Below, piece after piece: positions 7,310 through 38,345 of a DNA stretch of 64,000 nt (positions are counted from its first letter, which is position 1; each line of letters starts with the position of its first letter). A model generated the notes under the pieces. That model worked only from the letters and a program-made list of their open reading frames with translations. It had not been told where the DNA came from and did not search any database. Position numbers and translations under genes: made by a program. Origin of the DNA: Enterococcus sp. ZJ1622 (GTDB taxonomy: Bacteria; Bacillota; Bacilli; Lactobacillales; Enterococcaceae); assembly GCF_011038845.1 (NCBI RefSeq), contig NZ_JAAKDW010000005.1:124001-188000 (forward strand). The letters run 5' to 3'.

Positions 7310-9169
7310 TTATTCTTCATTACCATCAACTTTTTTATAGTAAAAATATCTTTTTCCCATCATCATACGTCTTGCTTTTTCATAACCTAACGATTTTAAT
7401 CGTTGTGTGAATTTTGGCTGCGAGTAAGGTTTAGAACCAGCTTCATCACAATACTGCAGATATTCTTCATATACACCTTTTGCGATCATATTCTCATCAA
7501 TACCGATTTGATGAATGAATCCAAGGAGTGAGTCACTTTCCACAAAATACTCTTCTGTGACCTTCTCGACTGTTTCGGAAGCGGAAAGGCGGCCGCCGTT
7601 GTTATTGATCCGTTCCATCGCATGTAATGCAATATTTAAGAGATACGACTTTGCGTTATCTGTGGATAGCTTCTCGTCAATTTTAGGATCGGCTTTCTTT
7701 ACTTTGTTCTCACAAGGGATGACGACAACACGACGTGCGATCCCTCCTGATTTATCTTTAAAAGTTGGCATTTCATTTGCTGTAAATATCAATGTAGCTT
7801 TATTTTTTAATTTGTATGGCTTGGAATAGATGGGACGGACCATGATGGTATTTCCAGAAGCCAAAGTTTTGAAGTTCATTGATTTTTCCATGTAGCCTGC
7901 ATCAATGTCATCACCGACGTTGACCAATTTCCCCTCTAATTCCATCACAGAAGTTTGGTCGTTGAACTGTTCCAATGCTAAGTTTAACCCCAAATCACCA
8001 ATGAAGGCATTGAGCATTTCTAAGAACGTCGATTTCCCATTGGCTCCACTAGATCCAACTAGGAAAAATACTTTGTGGGGAAAACCTGCAGTCATTAAAA
8101 TGTGACCAAGCAGCTCTTCCACAATCAATCGTAAATCCTTTTTATCCGATACTAAGAAATTTAAAAAGTCATCGACTGTTTGATCATAAGCGTCTGGATC
8201 GTAGTCAACATCTAAAAAGTATGGTGTGAACTCTTTTGTGGCCATCGGAATAATTTCCCCGCCATCTAGCATAAAATTGTTCCGGAATTGGATTGGAAAA
8301 TCGTAGGTCTCAATCAATTCACCTTTGACAGGAAATAAATCAACCAACTGTTTCCATTTAGCGGGTAGCAGTTTGATACGCTTATCAATCAAACGAAGCA
8401 ATTTATTTCGATCATTGATCCAGTAATTTGACTCCTTATGAAAAACAGCGCCGTTGAAAAATTTAATTTCTAACTCTTTGGCCAATACTTCGCTTGTTAC
8501 AATCATATCTTTTGGATCCAAATAAAGTTGTTCCCGAATTTCTTTCTCACTAACCGAATTGACCAATGAATGGATATCCGTTGCTGGTAGCGGCTCTTTA
8601 TATACTTCACTATTGATGAATTCGGCGATTTTTGTCAATGTATCATAATCAATCTCGTACATCTCACGAACGGCCATCAAATGTGAGTAAAGCGAACTAT
8701 TTCGAGAACCTTCTTTCATGCCAGCGAGGGCTGTTTTAAGTTTGAGTGGCAACAATTCAAGTGGCAGCGTTGGTAAATCATCGAACATTTCTAAACTACC
8801 GTGCATTTTTCTAAGTTTGCCGTTTTGCTTGATCGTGCTAGTCGACTTGTTTCCTGTTTTATAATCGACTTGTGCGCCAGAAACGGTTAGTTTTTTGGTC
8901 CAATTTCGCAAAAGGACTTTATGGCCATTAATTTGAACAGGTCTTTTATAGTACAGGTGAATACCTCGTTTAGTCTCAAAAGCCAGTGTTGGATACTTTT
9001 CTAATAACTTATGACCAATTTCCGGATATTCATCAAAGTCGACTACAACTGTTTCTTTATTTAAAAGAATAGCTGCATTATCCAGTTTGTCCAAGTTGGT
9101 ATAAAAATCCTCTAGGCTTTTTTGATCAGGCACTTTTTCACCTGGCTTCAATTTGATAAAATTCAACAC
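7310..9169 (-). CDS. Replication primase-helicase (prim-pol + D5_N + SF3 helicase)
   Basis: Initiator/primase fused to a ring helicase, 619 residues. The N-terminal bifunctional prim-pol domain has the metal-binding VVVDFDE (41-47) and GIHLYYKRP (69-77). A D5_N-like region occupies the middle. The SF3 helicase has Walker A VGSSGANGKST (371-381), Walker B LVNVGDDID (415-423) and motif C-like KATLIFTANEMP. A C-terminal winged helix is likely. It acts with the polymerase 20 bp upstream and with the iterons just downstream. The stop codon lies inside the origin repeats. Confidence 0.93.
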   Translation of the reverse strand: MLNFIKLKPGEKVPDQKSLEDFYTNLDKLDNAAILLNKETVVVDFDEYPEIGHKLLEKYPTLAFETKRGIHLYYKRPVQINGHKVLLRNWTKKLTVSGAQVDYKTGNKSTSTIKQNGKLRKMHGSLEMFDDLPTLPLELLPLKLKTALAGMKEGSRNSSLYSHLMAVREMYEIDYDTLTKIAEFINSEVYKEPLPATDIHSLVNSVSEKEIREQLYLDPKDMIVTSEVLAKELEIKFFNGAVFHKESNYWINDRNKLLRLIDKRIKLLPAKWKQLVDLFPVKGELIETYDFPIQFRNNFMLDGGEIIPMATKEFTPYFLDVDYDPDAYDQTVDDFLNFLVSDKKDLRLIVEELLGHILMTAGFPHKVFFLVGSSGANGKSTFLEMLNAFIGDLGLNLALEQFNDQTSVMELEGKLVNVGDDIDAGYMEKSMNFKTLASGNTIMVRPIYSKPYKLKNKATLIFTANEMPTFKDKSGGIARRVVVIPCENKVKKADPKIDEKLSTDNAKSYLLNIALHAMERINNNGGRLSASETVEKVTEEYFVESDSLLGFIHQIGIDENMIAKGVYEEYLQYCDEAGSKPYSQPKFTQRLKSLGYEKARRMMMGKRYFYYKKVDGNEE

Positions 9170-9188: not shown

Positions 9189-10751
9189 TTAAAAACAATT
9201 TTTTTCAATTTGTTCGATATACCATTTGGTGTCTATATCTTTTTTTGTCGCTTTTTCGTAAGTTAAAAAAGACGCTGGAGAATTTGGTAACCTAGAATGC
9301 AGATCATTTCTTACCTGGAACACACCGCCATATTTATTACTATTTGCGGCAATGCCACAGATTGTTTTATTCAATTTGATATATCCATTGATTGTTTGTT
9401 GTTCTATTCCTGTAAAATCTCCCTGGAGCTTCCCAATAAAGCAGAACTCTTCAAGAGATTCTTTTTTATATTGATCAATGATAAAATTTTGTGGTTTTAT
9501 TCCATTTACTACTGCTTCAAAAATACCGTTATAAATTACTGGTGTACTGTTTGATAAATAGGTTGGCTTTGCGAAAATTCCTTTTCGAACCAATTGACCA
9601 TCTTCTTTTTGTAGTACGTAGTTATTGACGTCTTTTTGCCATACCTTATTGACTTTCGTGATACTCACTTGTAAATGTAGTTGTCGACACCATAGTTCTA
9701 AAAGATCACGAATCGTATTTTCCATCACAGGATTAATCCGGATTACAATACCGTCAGTGTTTGTTTGGATCAACTCTTCAAAAAAACTTTCTAAAACTAG
9801 AATGAGGTGAGTAATAATCAACTGACCGTTTACCGTAACCGAATAGAATTTTTGTGGATCGTACAACGCTGAATATGGATTGTTCATGGAGCCATTGATG
9901 GCATTGATCAAAATTTTATAAGCTAGTTTCCCTGTTTGAACCTTCTTTTTGTAAAGTTCATCGAATATCTCTGGACATTTAATGCCAACACTCAATAATT
10001 TATTATTTTGAATAATCGATGGGAAAAACTGATTAACATCAATCAATAAAAAGCAGCCTTCCCCTCGATATTTTTCTTTTGCTGCATGAACACCACCGAC
10101 GCCAAACGTATGTGTCAAGTTGGCCAATGTCATTTTAAATTTTTCCTGTTTCAATTTTTCTTCTAATGTATTTTTATATCGATCTTTTATAGATTGATAA
10201 AAATGAACTAGACGTTCTGGCAATTCATTAAAAGGAACATATTGATCAAATTTAAACAATAGTATGTTGGGACGTTTCGGCATTTTTTTAGCTTGAAGAA
10301 TTTCAGCAGCTAAATTCGCCCTGGTTTTCATGATCGAACGTGGTTTTAGCTGAAACTCTTTGACAATTTCAAACTTTGTTTCCAAATATTCTTCACGTTC
10401 TGAAAAAATAGCTTCACAAATTGCAATACGCTGTAAACAAAATTCTTCTGGTGTTTTGGCTTTAATCTTCATTCGCAAATTAAAACCAATTTCTTCAATC
10501 GTACAGTTTCTGGCTTCTTGACTTAAATCAATGGACAAATATTTTTGAAGAAATGAACTTTTTCCATCAGATAAAATCTTTGCCAAAAATTTATCACTCG
10601 TTTGGTAATTGCCATAACTGACTAAATAATGAACAGATGAGAGAGCCTGTTCAAGACTCTCTTTATCTGTAGCAGTGGTTATTTTGTCATCTGTTTTAAA
10701 TATGGCTAGCCAACTATCATTTTTTTGGAATAACCAGTAAAAGGTGAACAT
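9189..10751 (-). CDS. Compact family-B-like phage DNA polymerase
   Basis: 520 residues, only about half the length of a usual family B polymerase. Motif A is LIDVNQFFPSI (Asp238), motif B KILINAINGS (279-288) and motif C TNTDGIVI (Asp333). The first Asp of the usual DTD is Asn here, but the second, the metal ligand in family B enzymes, is kept. HTFGVGGVHAAKEK before motif A is common in phage family B enzymes. A clear 3'-5' exonuclease domain is not seen; the first 150 residues (with VSYGNYQTSDKF) may be its remnant. The ATG has AAGGAG upstream. It is encoded between the DUF669 protein and the primase-helicase. Confidence 0.85.
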   Translation of the reverse strand: MFTFYWLFQKNDSWLAIFKTDDKITTATDKESLEQALSSVHYLVSYGNYQTSDKFLAKILSDGKSSFLQKYLSIDLSQEARNCTIEEIGFNLRMKIKAKTPEEFCLQRIAICEAIFSEREEYLETKFEIVKEFQLKPRSIMKTRANLAAEILQAKKMPKRPNILLFKFDQYVPFNELPERLVHFYQSIKDRYKNTLEEKLKQEKFKMTLANLTHTFGVGGVHAAKEKYRGEGCFLLIDVNQFFPSIIQNNKLLSVGIKCPEIFDELYKKKVQTGKLAYKILINAINGSMNNPYSALYDPQKFYSVTVNGQLIITHLILVLESFFEELIQTNTDGIVIRINPVMENTIRDLLELWCRQLHLQVSITKVNKVWQKDVNNYVLQKEDGQLVRKGIFAKPTYLSNSTPVIYNGIFEAVVNGIKPQNFIIDQYKKESLEEFCFIGKLQGDFTGIEQQTINGYIKLNKTICGIAANSNKYGGVFQVRNDLHSRLPNSPASFLTYEKATKKDIDTKWYIEQIEKNCF

Positions 10752-19636: not shown

Positions 19637-20842
19637 ATGGCAAAAAAAGAAATTGATAAACGAATTAAAAAACACTTAACAAAAAAAGGCGAAGAAAAAT
19701 ATCAGTTTAGTCTGTACTTAGGAGTTGATCCGCTAACAGGGAAAAAAAGAAAAACAACGAGACGAGGTTTTAGTACGCCATTAGCCGCTGAGAGAGCTTT
19801 AAAAAGATTGGAGGCAGATATACAGGAAAAAGGACTGCAAGCTTCTACAGCTCAAAAGAGCAAGAAATTCGAATATGTTTACAGCTTATGGTTTGAGAAT
19901 TATAAAAAGACAGTTAAAGAAAGCACTTGGTCCTCCACCAAACAAATTTTTGACACACATATCTTAAAAGTGTTTGGAGATAAGTTCATTGACAAAATAG
20001 ACGTTTTTTTCTGTCAAGAAGCAGTAAATACTTGGTCTGATAGCCATCCTAAAATTTTTAAGAAAATAAAAAATTACACATCTAATGTTTTTGATTATGC
20101 TGCTTCTTTACAAATCATAACTAGCAATCCTATGAAATTAGTTTCTGTTCCACGCGGAGAAGCTCTAGACATCGAAGATAAAAATATCGAATTTTATACT
20201 AAAGAAGAATTAATCGAATTTCTAGAAGCAATAAGAAACGATGATGATGAAAGATATTTATTCTTTTCCCTATTGGCTTTTACAGGTATAAGAAAAGGAG
20301 AAGCTTTTGCACTGACCTGGTCGGATATTGATTTTAAGAGCAAAACACTCAATATTAATAAAACTGTAACAAGAGGTTATCAAGGGAGATTGATCGTAAA
20401 TACTCCTAAATCAAAATCTGGAAAAAGAAAAATTTATCTGGACAATGATTTGATCAGTTTATTGAGAAAGTATTATACAAAAAACAAAACGACCGTTACA
20501 ATCCAAAGCGAAAACTTAATTTTTCACCATGATGGTCTTCTCTATAACCCTACAGTTTCACGTTCGTGGCTTAATGTCATATATAAGCATCATCCAGAAT
20601 TGACTAAAAGAATCACTACTCATGGTTTTCGACATACTCATGCCTCTCTCCTTTTTGAATCAGGAGCTTCTTTAAAAGATGTTCAGGAACGTTTAGGGCA
20701 TGCAGACATTCAAACTACTTCAAATATCTACACTCATGTAACTGAAACTCAAAACAAAAAAGTCATCAATAATTTTGTAGCATTTATGAAGAATAGTACT
20801 CAGGGGGAGTCAAAAGGGGAGTCAAAAAATATTTTAGGCTAA
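19637..20842 (+). CDS. int: Tyrosine site-specific integrase
   Basis: 401 residues with the phage integrase layout: an AP2-like N-terminal arm-binding domain (QFSLYLGVDPLTGKKRKTTR), a SAM-like core-binding domain (about 70-170), and the catalytic domain with FTGIRKGEAFAL (Arg about 218), HGFRHTHASLL (about 328), LGHADIQTTSNIYTHV (Tyr about 365). The last codons contain a tandem GGGGAGTCAAAA repeat that may be an arm-type binding site. It integrates the phage at the adjacent tRNA-Ser. Confidence 0.97.
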   Translation: MAKKEIDKRIKKHLTKKGEEKYQFSLYLGVDPLTGKKRKTTRRGFSTPLAAERALKRLEADIQEKGLQASTAQKSKKFEYVYSLWFENYKKTVKESTWSSTKQIFDTHILKVFGDKFIDKIDVFFCQEAVNTWSDSHPKIFKKIKNYTSNVFDYAASLQIITSNPMKLVSVPRGEALDIEDKNIEFYTKEELIEFLEAIRNDDDERYLFFSLLAFTGIRKGEAFALTWSDIDFKSKTLNINKTVTRGYQGRLIVNTPKSKSGKRKIYLDNDLISLLRKYYTKNKTTVTIQSENLIFHHDGLLYNPTVSRSWLNVIYKHHPELTKRITTHGFRHTHASLLFESGASLKDVQERLGHADIQTTSNIYTHVTETQNKKVINNFVAFMKNSTQGESKGESKNILG

Positions 20843-20877: not shown

Positions 20878-20894
20878 TAATCGTTGATATATAA

Positions 20895-20981
20895 GGAAGG
20901 TACGGGGATTGAACCCGTGCGCCGGTATTAGCCGGTTCGCCGGATTTCGAGTCCGGTGCATTACCACTCTGCCAACCTTCC
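20895..20981 (-). tRNA. tRNA-Ser(CGA)
   Basis: 87 nt on the minus strand. The acceptor stem is GGAAGGT/ACCTTCC, the anticodon stem CCGGA/TCCGG holds loop CTCGAAA (anticodon CGA). There is a long variable arm, as in class II tRNAs, and a T-arm with GGGTTCAATCC. CCA is not encoded. The base at the discriminator position is T on the tRNA strand, where Ser tRNAs usually have G. Its 3' end lies on the prophage side and is the likely att core. Confidence 0.95.
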
Positions 20982-29954: not shown

Positions 29955-30226
29955 CGAACGAGGTGAATCCATTCCTGATAAAAGAAACATTAGTTACTCT
30001 AGCAGATCATTCCAACGCCTCTACTGATTACATACTTGGAAGAAATCATGATTCTGTTTTGGACAATTGTGGAACTTGATACGCTTTTTGAATCGAACGT
30101 ACATATGTCTTATTGTTTACCTTGGAACAAATCCAGCGAGTCAGACCAGCGAATATTTCACTCATGCTTTCAGATATTATCCGTGGTGGAGAAGCGTCCG
30201 ATTATTTATTAAGCGCCGATGACTAG
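29955..30226 (+). pseudogene. Decayed small regulator (XRE-like remnant)
   Basis: A stretch encoding KETLVTLADHSNASTDYILGR has the pattern of the end of an XRE helix-turn-helix (compare LARLADYFDVSVDYLLGR in the prophage repressor), but the front of the domain is missing. After its stop, another frame (about 30096-30226) reads TLEQIQRVRPANISLMLSD ... YLLSADD and looks coding without a start. I read this as debris of one or two regulator genes. Confidence 0.35.
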
Positions 30227-30382
30227 AATGAAGCGCCACTGGAAGGGAAAGAATGGCTGGTGATTACCACTATTTTTTTGCCTTGCTTTTCGTTGTTATG
30301 ACAATATTGTTAGCTTTTTCGATTAATATATTCAGTTCACCTACTATATAATCGAGATACAAAATTGAAATGAGGGATTGTC

Positions 30383-30769
30383 TTGAAAAAAATAATTGGA
30401 TTGATTCTTATTGCCATTATTGCTTTTGCTGGATGGATAGGATGGGATTATTATCACTCTACCTATATGGGTAAAGATTACTATGCCGTCATTCACTCAC
30501 CCTTACCTTCAGAAAAAGATATAAAAGCAGATGATGGCTCTCCTATGGGCAAAGGATATAAATATGTTGTGGACGCCTATGACAAAGAAGGAAATAAACG
30601 AAAACTGGATTTTTCAGTCATTACTTCTGGAGATTACAAGAACGGATCAGCTTACAAAGAAGGAACGATCCTACGCCTGCATGCCAGTGATAAACGGATC
30701 ATTGAAAAAGAAGTCATCTCCAGTGATAAATTGCCAAAAACTGTCAAGGATAAGTTAGGAATCGTATGA
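30383..30769 (+). CDS. YxeA family secreted/membrane-anchored protein
   Basis: 128 residues. The N-terminal signal/anchor is IIGLILIAIIAFAGWIGW. The rest has the YxeA (DUF1093) pattern: DYYAVIHSPLP, KGYKYVVDAYDKEGNKRKLDFSV and LHASDKRIIEKEVISSDKLPK. A small OB-like exported protein. TTG at 30383 is the start. Function unknown. Confidence 0.8.
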   Translation: MKKIIGLILIAIIAFAGWIGWDYYHSTYMGKDYYAVIHSPLPSEKDIKADDGSPMGKGYKYVVDAYDKEGNKRKLDFSVITSGDYKNGSAYKEGTILRLHASDKRIIEKEVISSDKLPKTVKDKLGIV

Positions 30770-30825
30770 TTTCTTTGAACCATTGAGACGATTTGAACAA
30801 TCAATAAGTTAACAAGTTTAATAAA

Positions 30826-30851
30826 AAAGAAAACACTCGAAATGAGTGTTT
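30826..30851. repeat. Direct repeat left of IS (duplicated terminator)
   Basis: AAACACTC/GAGTGTTT stem with GAAAT loop. Same 26 bp at 32369-32394. On the left copy the T-run after the stem is cut off by the IS. Confidence 0.85.
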
Positions 30852-32278
30852 CAGACTGTAGACAAAAGCATCGGTTTCCTCTTTTCTAAGAGTGTAAACT
30901 GATGCTTTTGCCTATTTTTGTATAATAAACGATATGAAGACATACGCTTCCACTGCCAACTAGCCAATTTTTTCAGATTCATTGCGGCAAAAACAAGCAT
31001 CGTATGCACCTGATTTTTTTCCAAGCCTCGATACTTGGTGTAGCGCATTCCATGCTTTTCCTTTGCGTCTGCAAAAACGCGTTCAATCGTTTCTTTTCTT
31101 TTTTTATATTTTTCGCGATTGTACGCCGTATGGCGTAAATGTTCTGCTTCATCTAAGTAGTCTTCCCAAATATGTCGATGTATTTCTTTTTGGTGTTTTT
31201 GGCTTTCTGTACAATTTTTCAATAATGGACAACTTTCACAAATAAAAGATTTAGATACATATTTTTTATAGCCATCTCGAGTAGTTGTGCGAAACTGAAG
31301 TGTTTGATCATTCGGGCATAGGTACCAGTTATAATAGGGATCATAATCAAAATCTTTCTTTTTAAAACGTTCTTTGTTTCCTTTGGGTCGAGTATAAGGA
31401 AAAATGGGCCGGAGTTTTCGATCGATTAAATACTTGGCGTTCCAAGGTGTTTTGTACGCAGCATCAGCAGCTACACCATAAAAGGAGAATCCACGTGATT
31501 TAACACGTTCGATTTGTGGTACGAGCATTCGGCTGTCATGTAGGTTTCCAGGCGTAATCATGACATCTAATACAAAACCATTTTCATCACAAACGGTATG
31601 AGCAGAATAAGCAAACTGTTTTTCTCGTTCTGTTTTTACATAATAACCACTTTCTGGATCTGCGACACTAATTTTCCTTTCGACCACCTCCTGACGAATG
31701 ATTGAACCAAAAGGGCGTTTGCCTTCGGCAATTCTTGCCTCATTGATTTCTTCTAATTGTTTTTGGTATAAAATGGCTTCTTTATGTGCCATCTCTCTTG
31801 TAAAAATACGTTTGTTCGCATTCGCTTTAATATGAGTTGAATCCATATACAAAATTTCTTCATGAATAAATCTAGCATCAACTGCTTGTTCGAGAATAAT
31901 GATAAATATCTGTTCAAACAAATCGGTTTCTCTGAAACGCCGTGCATAGTTTTTACCAAAAGTTGAAAAATGAGGAACTTTATCAATTAAACTAAGCCCA
32001 AGAAACCAACGATAAGCTAGGTTTGTTTCAACTTCTTTAATGGTCTGACGCATTGAACGGATCCCGAATAAATATTGAATGAATACTAATTTTACTAAGA
32101 CGACAGGATCAACGCTAGGACGACCAATGGTCGAGTAAGTTGATTCAACAATTGGATAAATAAAATCAAATGACAATGATTTGTCAATTTTACGGACCAA
32201 ATGATTTTTAGGAACAAGTGCATCTAGCGAAATTTTGGCTTCTTCCATCCGACTATCCATTGATTGTTTGGACATCAT
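30851..32278 (-). CDS. IS1182 family transposase
   Basis: About 475 residues, intact. N-terminal DUF772-type domain (PKNHLVRKIDKSLSFDFIY, GRPSVDPVVLVKLVFIQYLFGIRSMRQ) and a DDE domain with MDSTHIKANANK, GVAADAAYKTPWNAKYL and the late Glu in RKETIERVFADAKEKHGMRYT. A cysteine cluster (CPNDQTL ... CESCPLLKNC) is present. ATG at 32278 follows GAGGAGG. The stop codon lies in the terminal inverted repeat. Confidence 0.93.
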   Translation of the reverse strand: MMSKQSMDSRMEEAKISLDALVPKNHLVRKIDKSLSFDFIYPIVESTYSTIGRPSVDPVVLVKLVFIQYLFGIRSMRQTIKEVETNLAYRWFLGLSLIDKVPHFSTFGKNYARRFRETDLFEQIFIIILEQAVDARFIHEEILYMDSTHIKANANKRIFTREMAHKEAILYQKQLEEINEARIAEGKRPFGSIIRQEVVERKISVADPESGYYVKTEREKQFAYSAHTVCDENGFVLDVMITPGNLHDSRMLVPQIERVKSRGFSFYGVAADAAYKTPWNAKYLIDRKLRPIFPYTRPKGNKERFKKKDFDYDPYYNWYLCPNDQTLQFRTTTRDGYKKYVSKSFICESCPLLKNCTESQKHQKEIHRHIWEDYLDEAEHLRHTAYNREKYKKRKETIERVFADAKEKHGMRYTKYRGLEKNQVHTMLVFAAMNLKKLASWQWKRMSSYRLLYKNRQKHQFTLLEKRKPMLLSTV

Positions 32279-32369
32279 TATACATTCCTCCTCTAAAAGC
32301 AAACGTTTTCTTTAATTGTAACAAAAAAACTGTAGAACAAAGAAATTTTTTTCTTTGTCTACAGTCTGA
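30851..32369 (-). mobile_element. IS1182-type insertion sequence
   Basis: About 1519 bp. The ends are exact inverted repeats of at least 16 bp (TCAGACTGTAGACAAA and its complement). It holds one transposase gene on the minus strand. It is flanked by a direct repeat of about 24-26 bp (30826-30851 and 32369-32394) that contains a complete terminator stem-loop. Long or variable target duplications and a taste for palindromes are known in the IS1182 family. Confidence 0.92.
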
Positions 32370-32394
32370 AAGAAAACACTCGAAATGAGTGTTT
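32369..32394. repeat. Direct repeat right of IS (duplicated terminator, with T-run)
   Basis: Second copy of the stem-loop; here followed by TTTTCTTTTTT, so it still looks like an active plus-strand terminator, presumably the original one of the YxeA gene. Confidence 0.85.
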
Positions 32395-32437
32395 TCTTTT
32401 TTATTAACTGTTATTCATTTTTAAAACTTAATGAACG

Positions 32438-32466
32438 CCCTTATCTTAAAGGCGTTCGTTCAATTC
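32438..32466. repeat. Island attachment-site repeat, distal copy
   Basis: 29 bp identical to 36991-37019; adjoins host DNA on the left. Confidence 0.85.
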
Positions 32467-32539
32467 ATACATACATGTATTACTTTTCTTTCATATCGTT
32501 AACGAACGCTGTAATATCAGTATTTTGTCTATCCCTTAA

Positions 32540-32914
32540 TTATTCTGTTTGTTCTAATTTTTTAATATCCCTATCATCAAATCTATCACTAGTTTTTCTA
32601 TTTTTTACTTTTTTCTTCTCTCCAAACACTAGAAATAATTGTACAATAATTGCAGAAATAATGATTCCAATGATAGATATTGAATTTGAGGTGGAAACAT
32701 CTATAACATTCAAAGAATAAAGTGTTGAAGAAAGTAAACTGATTAAAACAATCCCTCTATAAAAAATAGTTTGTGAGTATACCCAAATTTTTTTAGAAGA
32801 CAGACTTCGTTTAGTTCTAAAACCTATACCTGCATTTCTACTCCTATCAAAGAACCAAATATTCAGAAGTAATAATATCGCTACTATTAAAATAAAATTA
32901 CTGTAAAAAAGCAA
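32540..32914 (-). CDS. SdpI-like membrane protein
   Basis: 124 residues, three hydrophobic segments (FILIVAILLLLNIWFF, GIVLISLLSSTLYSL, SISIIGIIISAIIVQLFLVF). Between the first two, NAGIGFRTKRSLSSKKIWVYSQT matches the conserved segment of the SdpI family (GYRTPxxxxxxxxW). The start is TTG with AGGAGGGG upstream. SdpI of Bacillus is an immunity protein against the toxin SdpC; here the role is unknown. Confidence 0.65.
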   Translation of the reverse strand: MLFYSNFILIVAILLLLNIWFFDRSRNAGIGFRTKRSLSSKKIWVYSQTIFYRGIVLISLLSSTLYSLNVIDVSTSNSISIIGIIISAIIVQLFLVFGEKKKVKNRKTSDRFDDRDIKKLEQTE

Positions 32915-32959
32915 AAACTCCCCTCCTAATAAAATATTTAACTACCGAAAAAAATACGT

Positions 32960-33323
32960 TTAGATAACACCATAGCTAAGTTTTTTTCTTAAATATTTAT
33001 TCCTTTTAGTACGCTTATATAAACGTGAAAGATGATCATATAGTAATTCTCCTTTAACTTTCTCTATTTTGGTTCTTTCTTTTGATCCTAGTGTCTGATA
33101 CTCAAGAAGTCGTTCTTTTTAGAGAAATTCACTGCGTAAAATTCATAAAATAAAAGATTATTCCTTTCTCTTTCTTAGTATATAGTGGATATATTACTAT
33201 TCTAAATTCTCTTCTATTATCATTTAAATAGTATTTAACTGTAAAAAATATGGTAAGAGCAGTTACTAATATACCTACCCAATCCGCAATGATCCCCATA
33301 TATTCGGGCTTATACCAATTCAT
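32960..33323 (-). pseudogene. Decayed small membrane protein gene
   Basis: The frame from ATG 33323 begins MNWYKPEYMGIIADWVGILV, with a membrane segment VGILVTALTIFFTVKYYL, and stops at 33129. In another frame the following 160 bp stay open (KERLLEYQTLGSKERTKIEK ... LRKKLSYGVI, stop 32960) after one in-frame TAA. A frameshift and a nonsense codon seem to have split one gene. Similar membrane proteins with a charged C-terminal helix are common in Firmicutes islands. Confidence 0.5.
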
Positions 33324-33786
33324 TTCATCACCTCTTTACCATTATACCAAAACTATAATGACCAAGTGAGCTTTCCTAAATATTATGTATCGCCCCTCAA
33401 AAAGGGACTATTTTTATTTACACCGACAAAGAAATATCAGAGATGCGCACATCGTTCACTGCGCCTTTCCCATTTGTCTGGTTGCATCGGCGTAAGAGGG
33501 TGTCATCTTCTTCCCTTTTATCCAAACGATGTCGAATGTAGTATCAGATCCTAATTCATCACCTCCCATATAATCAGAAATGAATGTCATTAAATGTCAA
33601 TTTAAAGCTCCTTTTCTGTCCAAATTTGCTGAGTTATAAAAAAAACGTTATTTATTTATACTTTTATTTGTTTTTCATCTTTTTTCAAATAGAAACATCT
33701 GATATTATAAGTAAAGAAAAGGCTTTAAAAAAAGAAATAAGAGGAATAAAAAAGAAAAATGATGAAATCAAGAAAGAAGGTCTTAA
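33324..33786. other. Island intergenic stretch with weak ORFs
   Basis: No confident gene. A minus-strand ORF of 37 codons (33456-33569) begins MGGDELGSDTTFDIVW and looks like a gene fragment. A plus-strand frame ending at 33790 (KEKALKKEIRGIKKKNDEIK) overlaps the next start as ATGA and could be a small coiled-coil protein or the tail of a lost one. A small hairpin with T-run lies near 33395-33420. Confidence 0.35.
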
Positions 33787-34089
33787 ATGAATAAATCGTA
33801 TTTTGACGGTGGCTTGGCTACATATATAGGAACTACTATTTTAGCCACTTTAATCACTATCTGCACATTTGGTATCTGCGCCCCATGGGGTATTTGTCTC
33901 ATTTATAACTGGAGAATTAAACACACTGTCATAAATGGCCAACGTTTATATTTTGACGGCACTGCTTTACAGCTATTCGGTAGCTGGATCAAATGGCTAC
34001 TTTTGACTTTTGTTACTTTTGGTATTTATGGTTTTTGGTTAAATATAAAATTAGAGCAGTGGCGAGTTAAACATACTCACACGCTTTGA
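33787..34089 (+). CDS. DUF898-like small membrane protein, partner of the nuclease
   Basis: 100 residues. Two similar halves each have a hydrophobic segment followed by an aromatic/basic motif: ILATLITICTFGICAPWGICLIYNWRIKHT and WLLLTFVTFGIYGFWLNIKLEQWRVKHT, joined by NGQRLYFDGTALQLFGSWIK. This GIYGFW...W...HT pattern belongs to DUF898-type membrane proteins. It lies 129 bp before the DUF4041-GIY-YIG gene in the same direction with no terminator between. I infer that it tethers or guides that nuclease to the membrane. Confidence 0.7.
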   Translation: MNKSYFDGGLATYIGTTILATLITICTFGICAPWGICLIYNWRIKHTVINGQRLYFDGTALQLFGSWIKWLLLTFVTFGIYGFWLNIKLEQWRVKHTHTL

Positions 34090-34218
34090 TAAAACATGCA
34101 GAGCTTTTCAAAAAAAGAATCATTAAATTGTCTTTTAGTAATTTGAAAAAGTTCAAAATAACTATTAGCAATAAAAAATCAATTGGAAATTATTTTATCA
34201 AATAGAGAGGATTAAATA

Positions 34219-35775
34219 ATGAGCTTTTTCAAAAGATTAAAAGAATTAAGTAATTTGAAAAAATCAATTGAACATGAAAAAGACACTCTGGAGAAACTAC
34301 AAACGGACATTTTTCTCGAAAATCAACGTGCCACTGAAGAAAAAAATCAGATTGCTGAACAAATAAATATTTTAACTAAACAGTTAGATGAAAAAGAATC
34401 TACTATGAATAATATCCGTAGTGTCCTTAGAGCGGAAAATGCCGCGTTACAAGATGAACTAATTAAGAATGCAAAAATAAAAGCAGAAAAAATAACATAC
34501 AGTGCCACCACAGAATTAAATTCGTTATTATCTTCCATAGATCAATATAAATCTGAATTGGACGAATTACAAGTTGAGCATGCTCTTTTGCAAAAAGAAA
34601 TAAATAGATATAAAAATCAAGCTAGAAAATATAAAGCAGATATCGTAGGGATTAAAGAGTTTAATAAAACTTATTCTAACTCACTGCATTGTGACGTGGA
34701 AACAATTGATACAGTAGTCAACAACATAGAAAATCTTCTTGATGAAGATGGACTGATTGATTCGCTCATCAAGTTACCTCTACACTCTGATAACTCAAAA
34801 GAATTGAGAAAATTATCAAGAGCGACTAGAAAAGAAATTGATGTTGTGCTGAAAAAATATGAATCACGTTACACCACAAAAGGAAATAAAGCTATATATA
34901 ACTTAATGGTAATAGGTTTGCAAGCAGAAATGCAATTACTCCTTTTCAACCTTAGTTATCAAAAATTAGAAGAAACAAAGAATATGATTGAGGAAATTTT
35001 TACAAAATATTTATTGATTGCGGGAAAAGGAAATAAATCAATTTTATCTACAATCACTAGATTTATTTCAGAGATGAAACCTTTATATTTAGAATTAATA
35101 AACATAGAATATCGCTATTATATTAAGCGCCAACAAGAAAAAGAAGAGCAACAAGCTATTCGCGAGCAAATGAAACAAGAAGCAGAAGAAAGAAAAGCTC
35201 TAGAAAACGAAAGAAAAAAACTGGAAAAAGAAGAATCGAAATATATAACTGAAATGAAACGAAATGAAGAGCTTTTACAAATTGAGACTGATATCGGAAA
35301 AATTGCACAATTAAATGAACGTTTAAAAGAACTGCAATCTCAACTAGAAAAAGTAGAAGAAAAGAAAGAAGAAGTTACAAGCTTGACGATGGGGAAAGCC
35401 GGTTATGTGTATATTATCTCTAATGTTGGTTCTTTCGGTGAAAATATCTTTAAAATTGGCATGACTCGAAGACTTGAACCTCAACAACGTGTTGACGAGT
35501 TAGGTAGTGCTTCTGTTCCATTTAAATTTGATGTCCATGCAATGATTTTTAGTGACGATGCTGTCAACTTAGAAAATACCTTGCACAAAAAATTATCAGA
35601 ATATCGAGTGAACAAAGTGAATTTTAGAAAAGAATTTTTCAAGTCGAGTATCAATGACTTAGAGACTTTGGTAGAAGAAATAGATCCAACTGCAGAGTTT
35701 ACAAGAACGATGCTTGCTGAAGAATACCAACAAACATTAGCTATTGAAGAAAACAGTCAAAATTTTATTGCTTAA
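34219..35775 (+). CDS. DUF4041 + GIY-YIG nuclease (SNIPE-like candidate phage defence)
   Basis: 518 residues. An N-terminal coiled coil (about 10-165), a DUF4041 region (about 150-330, with IVGIKEFNKTYSNSL, KGNKAIYNLMVIGLQAEMQLLLFNLSY and IEYRYYIKRQQEKEEQQ), a second charged coiled coil (about 310-390), then a T5orf172/MUG113-type GIY-YIG nuclease: AGYVYIISN (395-402), FKIGMTRRLEPQQRVDELG (411-429; Arg), and LENTLHKKLSEYRVNK with the metal-binding Glu. No membrane segment in this polypeptide. DUF4041 plus GIY-YIG is the make-up of the E. coli membrane nuclease SNIPE, which cuts phage DNA on entry; here the membrane part is a separate gene. Clear AGAGGA ribosome site. Confidence 0.88.
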   Translation: MSFFKRLKELSNLKKSIEHEKDTLEKLQTDIFLENQRATEEKNQIAEQINILTKQLDEKESTMNNIRSVLRAENAALQDELIKNAKIKAEKITYSATTELNSLLSSIDQYKSELDELQVEHALLQKEINRYKNQARKYKADIVGIKEFNKTYSNSLHCDVETIDTVVNNIENLLDEDGLIDSLIKLPLHSDNSKELRKLSRATRKEIDVVLKKYESRYTTKGNKAIYNLMVIGLQAEMQLLLFNLSYQKLEETKNMIEEIFTKYLLIAGKGNKSILSTITRFISEMKPLYLELINIEYRYYIKRQQEKEEQQAIREQMKQEAEERKALENERKKLEKEESKYITEMKRNEELLQIETDIGKIAQLNERLKELQSQLEKVEEKKEEVTSLTMGKAGYVYIISNVGSFGENIFKIGMTRRLEPQQRVDELGSASVPFKFDVHAMIFSDDAVNLENTLHKKLSEYRVNKVNFRKEFFKSSINDLETLVEEIDPTAEFTRTMLAEEYQQTLAIEENSQNFIA

Positions 35776-35883
35776 TATATTATGTTAAAATCTTTGTTTT
35801 TTTGATGGTGACTATCACTACCTACCATTAAGTGGGAGTAAATATTTGATTTATCTATTGATATTTTCAACAAGGAGGAATAA

Positions 35884-36732
35884 ATGAGTACATTTTTAAT
35901 GTTAGTTGGTTTTTTTGGATTTCTATTCGGACTATGCTTTTTAGTATATTCTTTTTTATCCAAGAAAAGACGTTCAAAGAAAAAGATCGGTATTGGAATT
36001 CTAGTAGCTTTTATCGTTATGATAATAGGTGGCGCTCTTGCTCCGCCAGCTACTGGACAAGCAGCCCCACACAAAAACGCTAAATCTTCATCCTCTAGTG
36101 TATCTGCTTCCTCCGAAATCCGAGAAAAAGATGAAAAAAAAGCTAAAGAATTAGCTAAAAAGAAAAAGGCTGAAGAACAAAAAGCTAAAGAAGAGGCTGA
36201 GAAAAAACAACAAGAAGAACAAAAAGCTAAAGAAGAAGCTGAGAAAAAACGCCAAGAAGAAATTAATCAAAAAACTTCAACAGCTAAAACTATTCTAGCA
36301 CAAGCAGAAGCTACTCCAACCAGAGATAACTATAATACAGCGTTATCAGCAATCCAATCCATCCCCGGTGGAAACCAAGAATTATCAAATCGATTAGCCA
36401 ATGTTGATTCAACTATAAAAGCTAATGAGGCCGCCGAAGCAGAACGACAAAAACAACAAGCAGAAGCACAGCAAGCTGCTGAAGCTCAGCGTCAAGCACA
36501 AGAACAGCAAGCTGCTGAAGCTCAACGTCAAGCTGAACAGCAAAATAATTCGTACACTGTTGATGGACAGTGGTCTATTGCTGCAAATGGCATGGTTTTC
36601 GCTCGCTCAGATAGTGGTAAATATTATTCTCGTGTTACAAATCCAAATAATTATCAATATATGACCCAGGTAGACGCTGATAATGCTGGATACAGTCGTG
36701 CTCCCCGTGGGAATCAATACGCTCGACCATAA
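35884..36732 (+). CDS. Membrane-anchored coiled-coil surface protein
   Basis: 282 residues. Two N-terminal membrane segments (FLMLVGFFGFLFGLCFLVYSFL and IGIGILVAFIVMIIGGAL). Then Lys/Glu/Ala coiled coil with tandem units (KAKEEAEKKQQEEQ, KAKEEAEKKRQEE), a helical stretch about 135-175, a Gln/Ala-rich repeat (QQAAEAQRQAQE twice) and a C-terminal domain VDGQWSIAANGMVFARSDSGKYYSRV ... GNQYARP. The last part recurs in surface proteins of lactobacilli and enterococci, to my knowledge without a function. It follows the nuclease by 108 bp with its own AAGGAGG; it may be a third part of the system or an independent cargo gene. Confidence 0.65.
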   Translation: MSTFLMLVGFFGFLFGLCFLVYSFLSKKRRSKKKIGIGILVAFIVMIIGGALAPPATGQAAPHKNAKSSSSSVSASSEIREKDEKKAKELAKKKKAEEQKAKEEAEKKQQEEQKAKEEAEKKRQEEINQKTSTAKTILAQAEATPTRDNYNTALSAIQSIPGGNQELSNRLANVDSTIKANEAAEAERQKQQAEAQQAAEAQRQAQEQQAAEAQRQAEQQNNSYTVDGQWSIAANGMVFARSDSGKYYSRVTNPNNYQYMTQVDADNAGYSRAPRGNQYARP

Positions 36733-36759
36733 CTAGTAGCATTATGATAATTCAAGATT

Positions 36760-36782
36760 AGCCTTCGGGCTTTTCTTTTTTA
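36760..36782 (+). terminator. Weak terminator after the coiled-coil gene
   Basis: AGCC-TTCG-GGCT followed by TTTCTTTTTT. It closes the plus-strand run of the island. Confidence 0.55.
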
Positions 36783-36879
36783 GATAAAAATGATTAGATA
36801 TCGATCTACGTAACAAATTCAAAGATTACATCAATAATCAACATCTAAAAGTTTCTGGGAAAATTATCTTATTATCAAA

Positions 36880-36907
36880 AAAGGATGGCTAGAATAAGCC
36901 ATCCTTT
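36880..36907 (-). terminator. Island-borne terminator for pgi
   Basis: AAAGGATGGCT pairs with AGCCATCCTTT over 11 bp. The T-run is on the minus strand. It lies inside the island, 92 bp after the pgi stop, and replaces the native terminator displaced to the left repeat. Confidence 0.75.
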
Positions 36908-36913
36908 CATTTT

Positions 36914-36967
36914 GGGTACCTAGGTGGGTACCAATTTTCATTTTAAAACCAACATGTTTTGGGTACT
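36914..36967. repeat. GGGTAC repeats beside the pgi attachment site
   Basis: GGGTACC at 36914 and 36926 and GGGTACT at 36961. Repeats of this sort beside an att core look like arm-type sites for a tyrosine integrase, which is missing here. The remaining part of 36733-36990 shows no gene. Confidence 0.45.
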
Positions 36968-36990
36968 AATTTGTGATAATCACTTAAAAA

Positions 36991-37019
36991 CCCTTATCTT
37001 AAAGGCGTTCGTTCAATTC
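36991..37019. repeat. Island attachment-site repeat, pgi copy
   Basis: 29 bp identical to 32438-32466; overlaps the last codons and stop of pgi. Confidence 0.85.
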
Positions 37020-38345
37020 TTTAGCAAGGTCTTCAAAGCCTGGTTTACCTAGAAGTGCGAACATGTTTTTCTTGTAAGCTTCAACACCTGGTTGGTCAAA
37101 TGGATTGATACCGTTCAAGTAGCCTGAAATACCTACTGCGATTTCAAAGAAGTACATTGTGTATCCCAATGTGTAAGCATCCATCTCTGGGATTTTTACA
37201 AGAAGGTTCGGTACGTCACCATCTGTATGGGCAAGTAATGTTCCTTCGAACGCTTTTGTATTGACAAAGTCTACTTCTTTTCCTTGCAAGTAGCCTAGTC
37301 CATCCAAGTCTTCTGCTTGTTCAGGAATAGTGATTGATTTACGAGGTTTTTCGACTTTAACGATTGTTTCGAAAATATTACGGCGTCCTTCTTGGATATA
37401 TTGTCCTAGAGAATGCAGATCTGTAGAGAAGTTTGCACTTGAAGGATAGATTCCTTTTTGGTCTTTTCCTTCTGATTCGCCGTATAATTGTTTCCACCAT
37501 TCAGAGAAGTATTGCATCCCTGGTTCGTAGTTGATCAATAGTTCTGTTACTTTTCCTTTACGATAAAGGATATTACGCATTGCTGCATATTGATACGCTT
37601 CGTTTTCTTCTAATTTGTCGCTTGAATAAGCTTTGCTTGCATCTGCTGCACCTTGCATCAAAGCATCAATATCTGCTCCGCTGACAGCGATTGGCAACAA
37701 ACCAACAGCAGTCAATACAGAAAAACGTCCACCGATGTCATCAGGAATAACAAATGTTTGCCATCCTTCAGCGTCAGCTTCTACTTTAACGGCACCTTTT
37801 GCTTTGTCTGTTGTTGCATAGATTCGTTTGTTAGCTTCTTCTTGACCATATTTTTTCACAAGAAGTTCTTTGAATACGCGGAAAGCAATCGCAGGTTCAG
37901 TAGTTGTACCTGATTTTGAAATAACGTTTACGGAAAAGTCGCGGTCCCCGATGACTTCGATCAAATCAGCGATATAAGTAGAGCTGATTGAATTTCCGGC
38001 AAAGAAGATTTGTGGTGCTTTGCGTGTTTCTCCGTCCAATAGATTATAGAATGTGTGGTTCAAGAAATCGATTGCTGCACGAGCACCTAAATATGAACCT
38101 CCGATACCGATCACTACTAATACTTCAGAATCAGATTGGATTTTTTCAGCTGCTTTTTTGATGCGTGCGAATTCTTCTTTATCGTAATTCGTTGGAAGAT
38201 CGATCCAGCCGCGGAAATCACTACCTGCACCTGTTCCTTCACGCAATTCGTTGTGCGCTGCTGTTACTTGACTTTGCATGTAGCCTAACTCGTGTTCACT
38301 GACAAACGGTGCGACTTTTGAATAGTCAAATTGAATGTGTGCCAT
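36999..38345 (-). CDS. pgi: Glucose-6-phosphate isomerase
   Basis: Interconverts glucose-6-phosphate and fructose-6-phosphate in glycolysis, cytosolic. 448 residues, the usual Gram-positive length. Signatures: [50 protein letters not shown], catalytic [11 protein letters not shown] and the conserved helix with [17 protein letters not shown] precedes the ATG. The reading frame is intact although its 3' end was used as an integration site. Confidence 0.97.

Follow-up and report, generated by a model that had tools for sequence, protein, structure and literature searches.

The locus and its two genes

The locus is based upon two open reading frames on the forward strand of the window (the whole stretch of 64,000 nucleotides that was analysed). 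Both had been reported in an earlier note on this DNA, and both are real; their coordinates and strand were verified.

33787 to 34089, + strand: gene of a 100-aa DUF898 membrane protein, an independent neighbour of the nuclease gene judged by its distribution and contexts
34219 to 35775, + strand: gene of a 518-aa SNIPE-like nuclease

The genes are separated by 129 bases, and one copy of each was found in the host genome. The host of the nuclease gene is probably Gram-positive, as had been supposed. Five terminator-like sites were found; none lies between the two genes and one falls inside the DUF898 gene. An Rfam scan of positions 30000 to 37100 gave five matches, all below the gathering score of their family.

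The 100-aa protein matches the Pfam family DUF898 (PF05987) with an E-value of 2.9e-10 and 40.2 bits (gathering cut-off 28), in agreement with its first assignment, the best stretch covering only 45 of the 336 profile positions. The protein is hydrophobic, with a best hydropathy window of 1.96.

A prophage remnant at pgi

The two genes lie within an island of 4.5 kb delimited by direct repeats, one of which is located at the 3′ end of pgi. Its features are as follows.

32438 to 32466, + strand: 29-bp attachment repeat, left copy
32465 to 32614, no strand: prophage end beside the left repeat
35807 to 35842, + strand: 36-bp motif M, which in related prophages stands 5′ to cargo genes
35884 to 36732, + strand: 282-aa membrane/coiled protein
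36751 to 36790, + strand: terminator-like stretch
36991 to 37019, + strand: right copy of the 29-bp attachment repeat, which overlaps pgi at its 3′ end

The two copies of the repeat are exact, and further copies with 0–2 mismatches are present in the genomes G004, G005 and G006. The prophage end beside the left repeat is 80% identical to the corresponding stretch beside the repeat of G006, and 78% to that of G005. In G006 an integrase recognized by Pfam lies beside pgi with one copy of the repeat (1 mismatch), and the other copy is on another contig. G005 has an integrase-like ORF beside pgi and a repeat copy (2 mismatches) about 26.5 kb on; the copy at pgi itself has more than three differences. 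A prophage of L. sakei is described as using the same attachment gene, pgi (PMC9641780).

The right-hand part of the island is also that of a prophage. In related prophages, homologues of the 282-aa protein immediately precede an integrase-like ORF, and the G005 homologue is 43% identical over 223 positions. The terminator-like stretch is 92.5% identical to positions 8301 to 8340 of L096, the IMG/VR contig that carries the nearest relative of the nuclease, and is present in G005 as well; in both it adjoins the integrase. The L096 nuclease gene itself lies between an ImmA-like ORF, labelled by resemblance, and an integrase confirmed by Pfam.

No integrase belonging to the island was found, three integrase queries matching at significant E only at 19664 to 20812, outside it. 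Immediately beyond the left repeat there is an IS1182 transposase ORF. Judged by sequence, the nuclease and DUF898 genes are thus in an integrase-less, decayed prophage at pgi, and the 29-bp repeats and prophage ends at the pgi site bear out the earlier placing of the nuclease gene on a mobile element.

Three observations were made on neighbouring or related elements. A tyrosine-integrase-like ORF at 19637 to 20842 lies beside a tRNA-Ser gene (20894 to 20981), which suggests a separate element. In L179 (genome G004) a copy of the pgi repeat at 9465 to 9493 is found about 68 kb from pgi with an apparent integrase fragment adjoining it, and is perhaps a rearranged element. Near the pgi-site elements or repeat copies of genus relatives (stretches L175, L178, L179 and L180) there is a protein of 260–324 aa, which we take to resemble bile salt hydrolases.

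Motif M precedes the 282-aa gene in the window. Its 20-base core is present in 46 IMG/VR stretches (L185 to L230), once or twice per stretch as an exact copy, and the copies were compared. Where the stretch is long enough, the motif sits between repressor- or ImmA-like and integrase-like ORFs, just before the cargo genes; these ORF labels are mostly by resemblance, as is that of the 378-aa integrase-like ORF. The prophages concerned resemble those of the window's genus, and the cargo scanned includes known and candidate defence families. PADLOC recognized five of ten slot cargo proteins (motif M was checked for nine of the ten, the exception being from G005): two match SIR2/PDC-S25, two match AAA ATPases and one, weakly, a restriction enzyme. 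The other five have no match, one of them being a DUF5067 protein. Neither SNIPE nor DUF898 was found in the 46 stretches. The SNIPE-type gene of G013 has motif M directly upstream. A coding piece was considered for motif M and judged unlikely, since two copies (L185 and L227) carry a 1-bp deletion; a regulator or a recombination linker are candidate roles. The genes of the window look like the remains of such a cargo slot.

The linker and nuclease module

The 518-aa protein is divided into the following segments, starting at its N terminus.

34219 to 34272, + strand: N-terminal segment MSFFKRLKELSNLKKSIE, a proposed membrane-targeting helix
34609 to 35136, + strand: central domain X (residues 131–306), not recognized as DUF4041
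35137 to 35394, + strand: EKEEQ-type charged linker common to SNIPE, from the alignment with L181
35395 to 35688, + strand: GIY-YIG nuclease domain, with the codon of Glu452 at 35572 to 35574

The whole protein matches the PADLOC profile PD-Lambda-1 (PDLC03976), which is that of SNIPE, at 4.2e-82 and 274.6 bits. Practically all of this comes from the C-terminal linker and nuclease, as residues 301–518 alone give 4.8e-82 and 274.4 bits. A hit with the PD-Lambda-1 profile may thus rest on the nuclease end of a protein alone, as it does here.

The GIY-YIG domain is matched by Pfam as MUG113 (4.3e-20) and T5orf172 (5.5e-18). Eight residues (Y398, K412, G414, R418, E452, N465, N468 and E472) are invariant in an alignment of 61 rows, so that the core is complete, as the earlier note had seen. 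E452 aligns with residue 414 of L181, an E. coli phage protein annotated as PD-lambda-1. If the numbering of L181 is that of the published SNIPE, Glu452 is the counterpart of E414, the mutation of which to alanine is reported to abolish defence (PMC13190303).

The state of the gene bears on the possibility that it is only a relic, without a function today. The small size of the surrounding element, its lack of an integrase and the IS1182 transposase ORF at its left border are what a relic would show, but the full-length reading frame and the conserved nuclease residues point the other way, and we regard this as unlikely. The nuclease gene may rather have been kept for protection after decay of the prophage.

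The central domain

In the published SNIPE the region before the linker is DUF4041, and a DUF4041-like region had been claimed for the 518-aa protein. The sequence does not support an ordinary DUF4041 SNIPE, although very distant homology is about as likely as not. Pfam DUF4041 gave no match to the 518-aa protein at E-values up to 1, and residues 1–300 gave no match to PD-Lambda-1 over the same range. Residues 1–336 of the TM-bearing close relative L039 similarly gave no match to PD-Lambda-1, whereas residues 1–254 of the canonical L181 alone match at 1.1e-72. Pfam DUF4041 matched 45 of the 61 members of set A1; the clade of the 518-aa protein has 16 members in A1, as many as the proteins that gave no match, a correspondence in number. 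In set A2 one protein of 16 had the domain, and this one is presumably L181.

These results tell against the view that X is simply a DUF4041 that has diverged greatly while keeping its fold and its partner (the tape measure protein), in which case the protein would be a diverged but ordinary SNIPE. Other observations are in favour. X occupies the same position between coil and linker. The whole-protein profile phrog_1847 aligns over residues 86–515, and residues 1–300 alone align in register with it at E 0.22. Comparison of profiles of the central regions of X and DUF4041 gave P = 0.019 or 0.0044, depending upon where the region was cut; the latter corresponds to a faint alignment in the second half, with a reversed control of 0.16. 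A P of 4.4e-08 was obtained only when the shared linker was included. A search of solved structures returned one irrelevant match (fibrinogen, E 0.13). We give this possibility an even chance, and it is compatible with the function proposed below. Judged by sequence comparison, X would be either a replacement of DUF4041 or a DUF4041 diverged beyond recognition. No second central domain of SNIPE-type nucleases was found in the passages of the SNIPE literature that were searched.

The N terminus

The 518-aa protein contains no predicted membrane segment, as the earlier note had observed. In a simple hydropathy window the maximum is 0.16 within the first 130 residues and 1.41 overall, against a threshold of 1.6. 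Five relatives without a transmembrane (TM) segment (L033 to L036 and L096) align with it from residue 1 at 42–60% identity. The close relatives that are like the 518-aa protein begin with segments of the MSFFKRLKELSNLKK type, and at this position the sister proteins L038 to L043 (Lederbergia, Aquibacillus, Sporosarcina and Virgibacillus) carry a hydrophobic segment of about 38 residues.

The presence or absence of a TM segment changes nine times on a tree of 94 rows, at least six changes being forced by the starred branches; the tree omits duplicates, any protein shorter than 400 aa, and L016, L061, L077, L095 and L103. L044 and L047 were called TM-less, although their start may be wrong.

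A strict N-terminal motif, defined after the sequences had been inspected, occurs in 25 of 46 TM-less proteins (21 at the called start, with five TM-less rows of the 25/46 count taken from an internal Met), in none of 48 TM proteins and at 3 of 380 internal Met residues. A looser version is found in 32 of 46 (28 as called), 4 of 48 and 34 of 380 respectively. The strict motif performed less well in a set compiled later, being present in 4 of 39 TM-less proteins at the called start and 9 of 39 at any early Met, compared with 0 of 31 TM proteins and 1 of 339 internal Met residues; 12 of these 39 TM-less proteins carry an N-terminal zinc-ribbon pattern instead.

The segment MSFFKRLKELSNLKKSIE has D = 1.32 and ranks at 0.086 within its own protein; the rank of its moment is 0.339. 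For the N-terminal segment of the close relative L036, D is −0.38. The case for an amphipathic helix is modest. The N-terminal segments of the TM-less SNIPE relatives presumably resemble in sequence the N-terminal helix of PspA. This helix, of the amphipathic kind, is reported to be that through which PspA binds membranes (PMC12358876).

SNIPE deprived of its anchor is described as toxic, cutting the DNA of its host (PMC13190303). It follows that a TM-less protein that is harmless should have another tether. This, together with the hydrophobic segment of the relatives at the same position, suggests that the N-terminal segment may hold the 518-aa protein at the membrane.

The DUF898 gene is probably an independent neighbour

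The earlier note proposed a split system, in which membrane anchor and nuclease are separate proteins; the DUF898 protein would then serve as anchor or sensor partner that recruits a soluble nuclease. The adjacency of the two genes on the same strand, the hydrophobic character of the 100-aa protein and the lack of a terminator-like site between the genes (one lies inside the DUF898 gene) are consistent with this. In G137, which holds the closest relative found in a genome, DUF898 is also on the same strand as the nuclease, at a distance of about 10 kb, with metabolic-looking genes in between.

The linkage is not conserved, however. DUF898 was detected by tblastn in none of 111 stretches containing SNIPE relatives (four of which, L031, L066, L095 and L103, have <350 bases upstream, and in one of which, L074, no ORF was found), nor in any of 80 viral SNIPE stretches, at least seven of these being contigs of the earlier survey. 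Among 395 genomes of the order, DUF898 is present in 120 and a SNIPE match in 35, of which three (G065, G228 and G348) are weak partial matches and probably not SNIPE. Twelve of the 35 also hold DUF898, and the two are side by side only in the genome of the window. The TM-less relatives L033 to L036 and L096 have no DUF898 in the 5–9 kb upstream; in the genome of L033 it is found about 10 kb downstream.

Moreover, DUF898 occurs where there is no SNIPE, both in the same kind of prophage slot (L119 and L173) and between chromosomal genes in two members of the genus (L170 and L171). Two records under the name Enterococcus phage contain it as well, with 79% identity, which suggests that the host of the window's DNA is an Enterococcus. 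Small membrane ORFs in general are not enriched upstream of TM-less proteins (7 of 43, against 6 of 46 for TM proteins). A two-gene system is rejected on linkage, and we consider it highly improbable. The DUF898 gene is best explained as a passenger in its own right, carried in a prophage slot of the same kind. The idea of a conserved membrane partner encoded downstream was also rejected, such ORFs being found with 11 of 44 TM-less and 10 of 42 TM proteins. One table of a published transposon screen for biofilm defects includes the 101-aa DUF898 gene OG1RF_10877 of E. faecalis OG1RF (PMC6753144).

Two types of SNIPE-like nuclease

A total of 164 distinct full-length proteins, including that of the window, were compared with profiles of the DUF4041 region and of X. 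At E-values up to 1e-5, 101 match the former and 63 the latter; none matches both and none matches neither. Half of the rows outside the clade served to train the model of the DUF4041 region, and 20 rows of the clade that of X, so only the remaining rows are independent of the models.

In a tree of the nuclease alone (117 columns with none from the central domain, made by a quick method, with 76 of 154 inner branches unresolved) the sensor type changes once, with 99% support. The type of anchor changes 23 times on the same tree, where well-supported branches force seven changes for the TM segment and three for the zinc ribbon. The sensor therefore stays with its own nuclease, while anchors change. 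A single change of sensor is also what would be given by the divergence of X from DUF4041.

Domain X is uncommon. Of the 395 genomes of the order, 5 gave a match, one of them with a second, diverged copy (L316), as did 6 of 398 genomes of the class, including one 31-residue match that is probably due to chance. Two of 378 genomes of the phylum gave matches, one being the genome of the window and the other match being weak, and 17 viral stretches contain it. A single-sequence search with X at E-values up to 0.01 gave no match in 50,697 phage and 72,556 plasmid records, while the whole 518-aa protein matches 42 phage and 186 plasmid records of the same sets. The second copy, at 1321 to 2325 of L316 on the − strand (genome G192), is a 334-aa protein with a similar N terminus and domain X (E 2.8e-15), and no GIY-YIG domain is visible in its translation.

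We tentatively suggest, with somewhat less than even confidence, that SNIPE-type nucleases comprise two old lineages, in which DUF4041 and X are sensors faithful to their nuclease and the anchors (TM segment, zinc ribbon or short N-terminal helix) are often swapped. X would then read another injection machine, perhaps the one used by phages that infect Gram-positive bacteria.

Proposed function

In the explanation that we favour, and judge to be fairly probable, the 518-aa protein acts as the product of a single gene and is directed to the membrane; it would be a SNIPE-like nuclease by which superinfecting phages are excluded through cleavage of their injected DNA. By analogy with SNIPE, which is described as cutting phage DNA at injection (PMC13190303), the nuclease would cut the DNA of the superinfecting phage during its injection. 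X would take the part that DUF4041 plays in SNIPE, which is to hold the DNA and the injection machinery. With no match to DUF4041, the protein would be a SNIPE-like nuclease of a second lineage, for which we infer a SNIPE-like working.

GIY-YIG domains serve many different tasks, and the nuclease might accordingly have one other than phage exclusion, such as homing, plasmid exclusion or DNA repair. The linker and nuclease are of SNIPE type, however, and the relatives are found in the context of a prophage lysogeny slot. Such a task is therefore quite improbable.

SNIPE represents a new principle of discrimination between self and non-self, whereby DNA is cut at its point of entry. A second lineage, in which the centre is different or much diverged, would separate the fixed part (nuclease and linker) from those that change, the sensor with the enemy and the anchor with the host membrane. 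Comparing the two would be a natural way to learn what the sensor holds. If there are indeed two lineages, cutting of DNA at the site of entry would have at least two recognition modules.

Comparison with known systems

The closest known system is SNIPE, or PD-Lambda-1 (Saxton et al. 2026, PMC13190303). It shares with the 518-aa protein the linker and GIY-YIG module, the organization as a single gene, the occurrence of relatives in phages and, presumably, an N-terminal region placed to reach the membrane. The 518-aa protein differs in having no TM segment and in having X where SNIPE has DUF4041. The lack of a predicted TM segment is shared with 34% of the published SNIPE homologues (n = 474); these are described as carrying DivIVA-like, secretion-ATPase-like and PH domains, and DUF4428 according to a figure legend. 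The word 'amphipathic' does not occur in the main text of that report (PMC13190303).

Protection of a Gram-positive bacterium has been reported for PD-Lambda-1 EU01 of S. thermophilus, which acts against several phages (PMC12322248); the likeness to the 518-aa protein is drawn from this description, and its central domain could be of either the X or the DUF4041 type. Two homologues were tested there, one strongly active and the other, 98.5% identical, inactive (PMC12322248). The fragment tested was 3.5 kb including 1 kb on each side, and the system thus probably acts as a single gene.

In L034 a gene for an Ltp-type lipoprotein (PF07553, 2.9e-51) lies downstream of an X-type nuclease, and a similar one, by resemblance, is found in L035; two putative injection-stage exclusion genes are side by side. 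Ltp is a surface lipoprotein with no nuclease, unlike the 518-aa protein, but, as is proposed for the latter, is an exclusion protein of a prophage, and is described as acting on the tape measure protein (PMC3952083).
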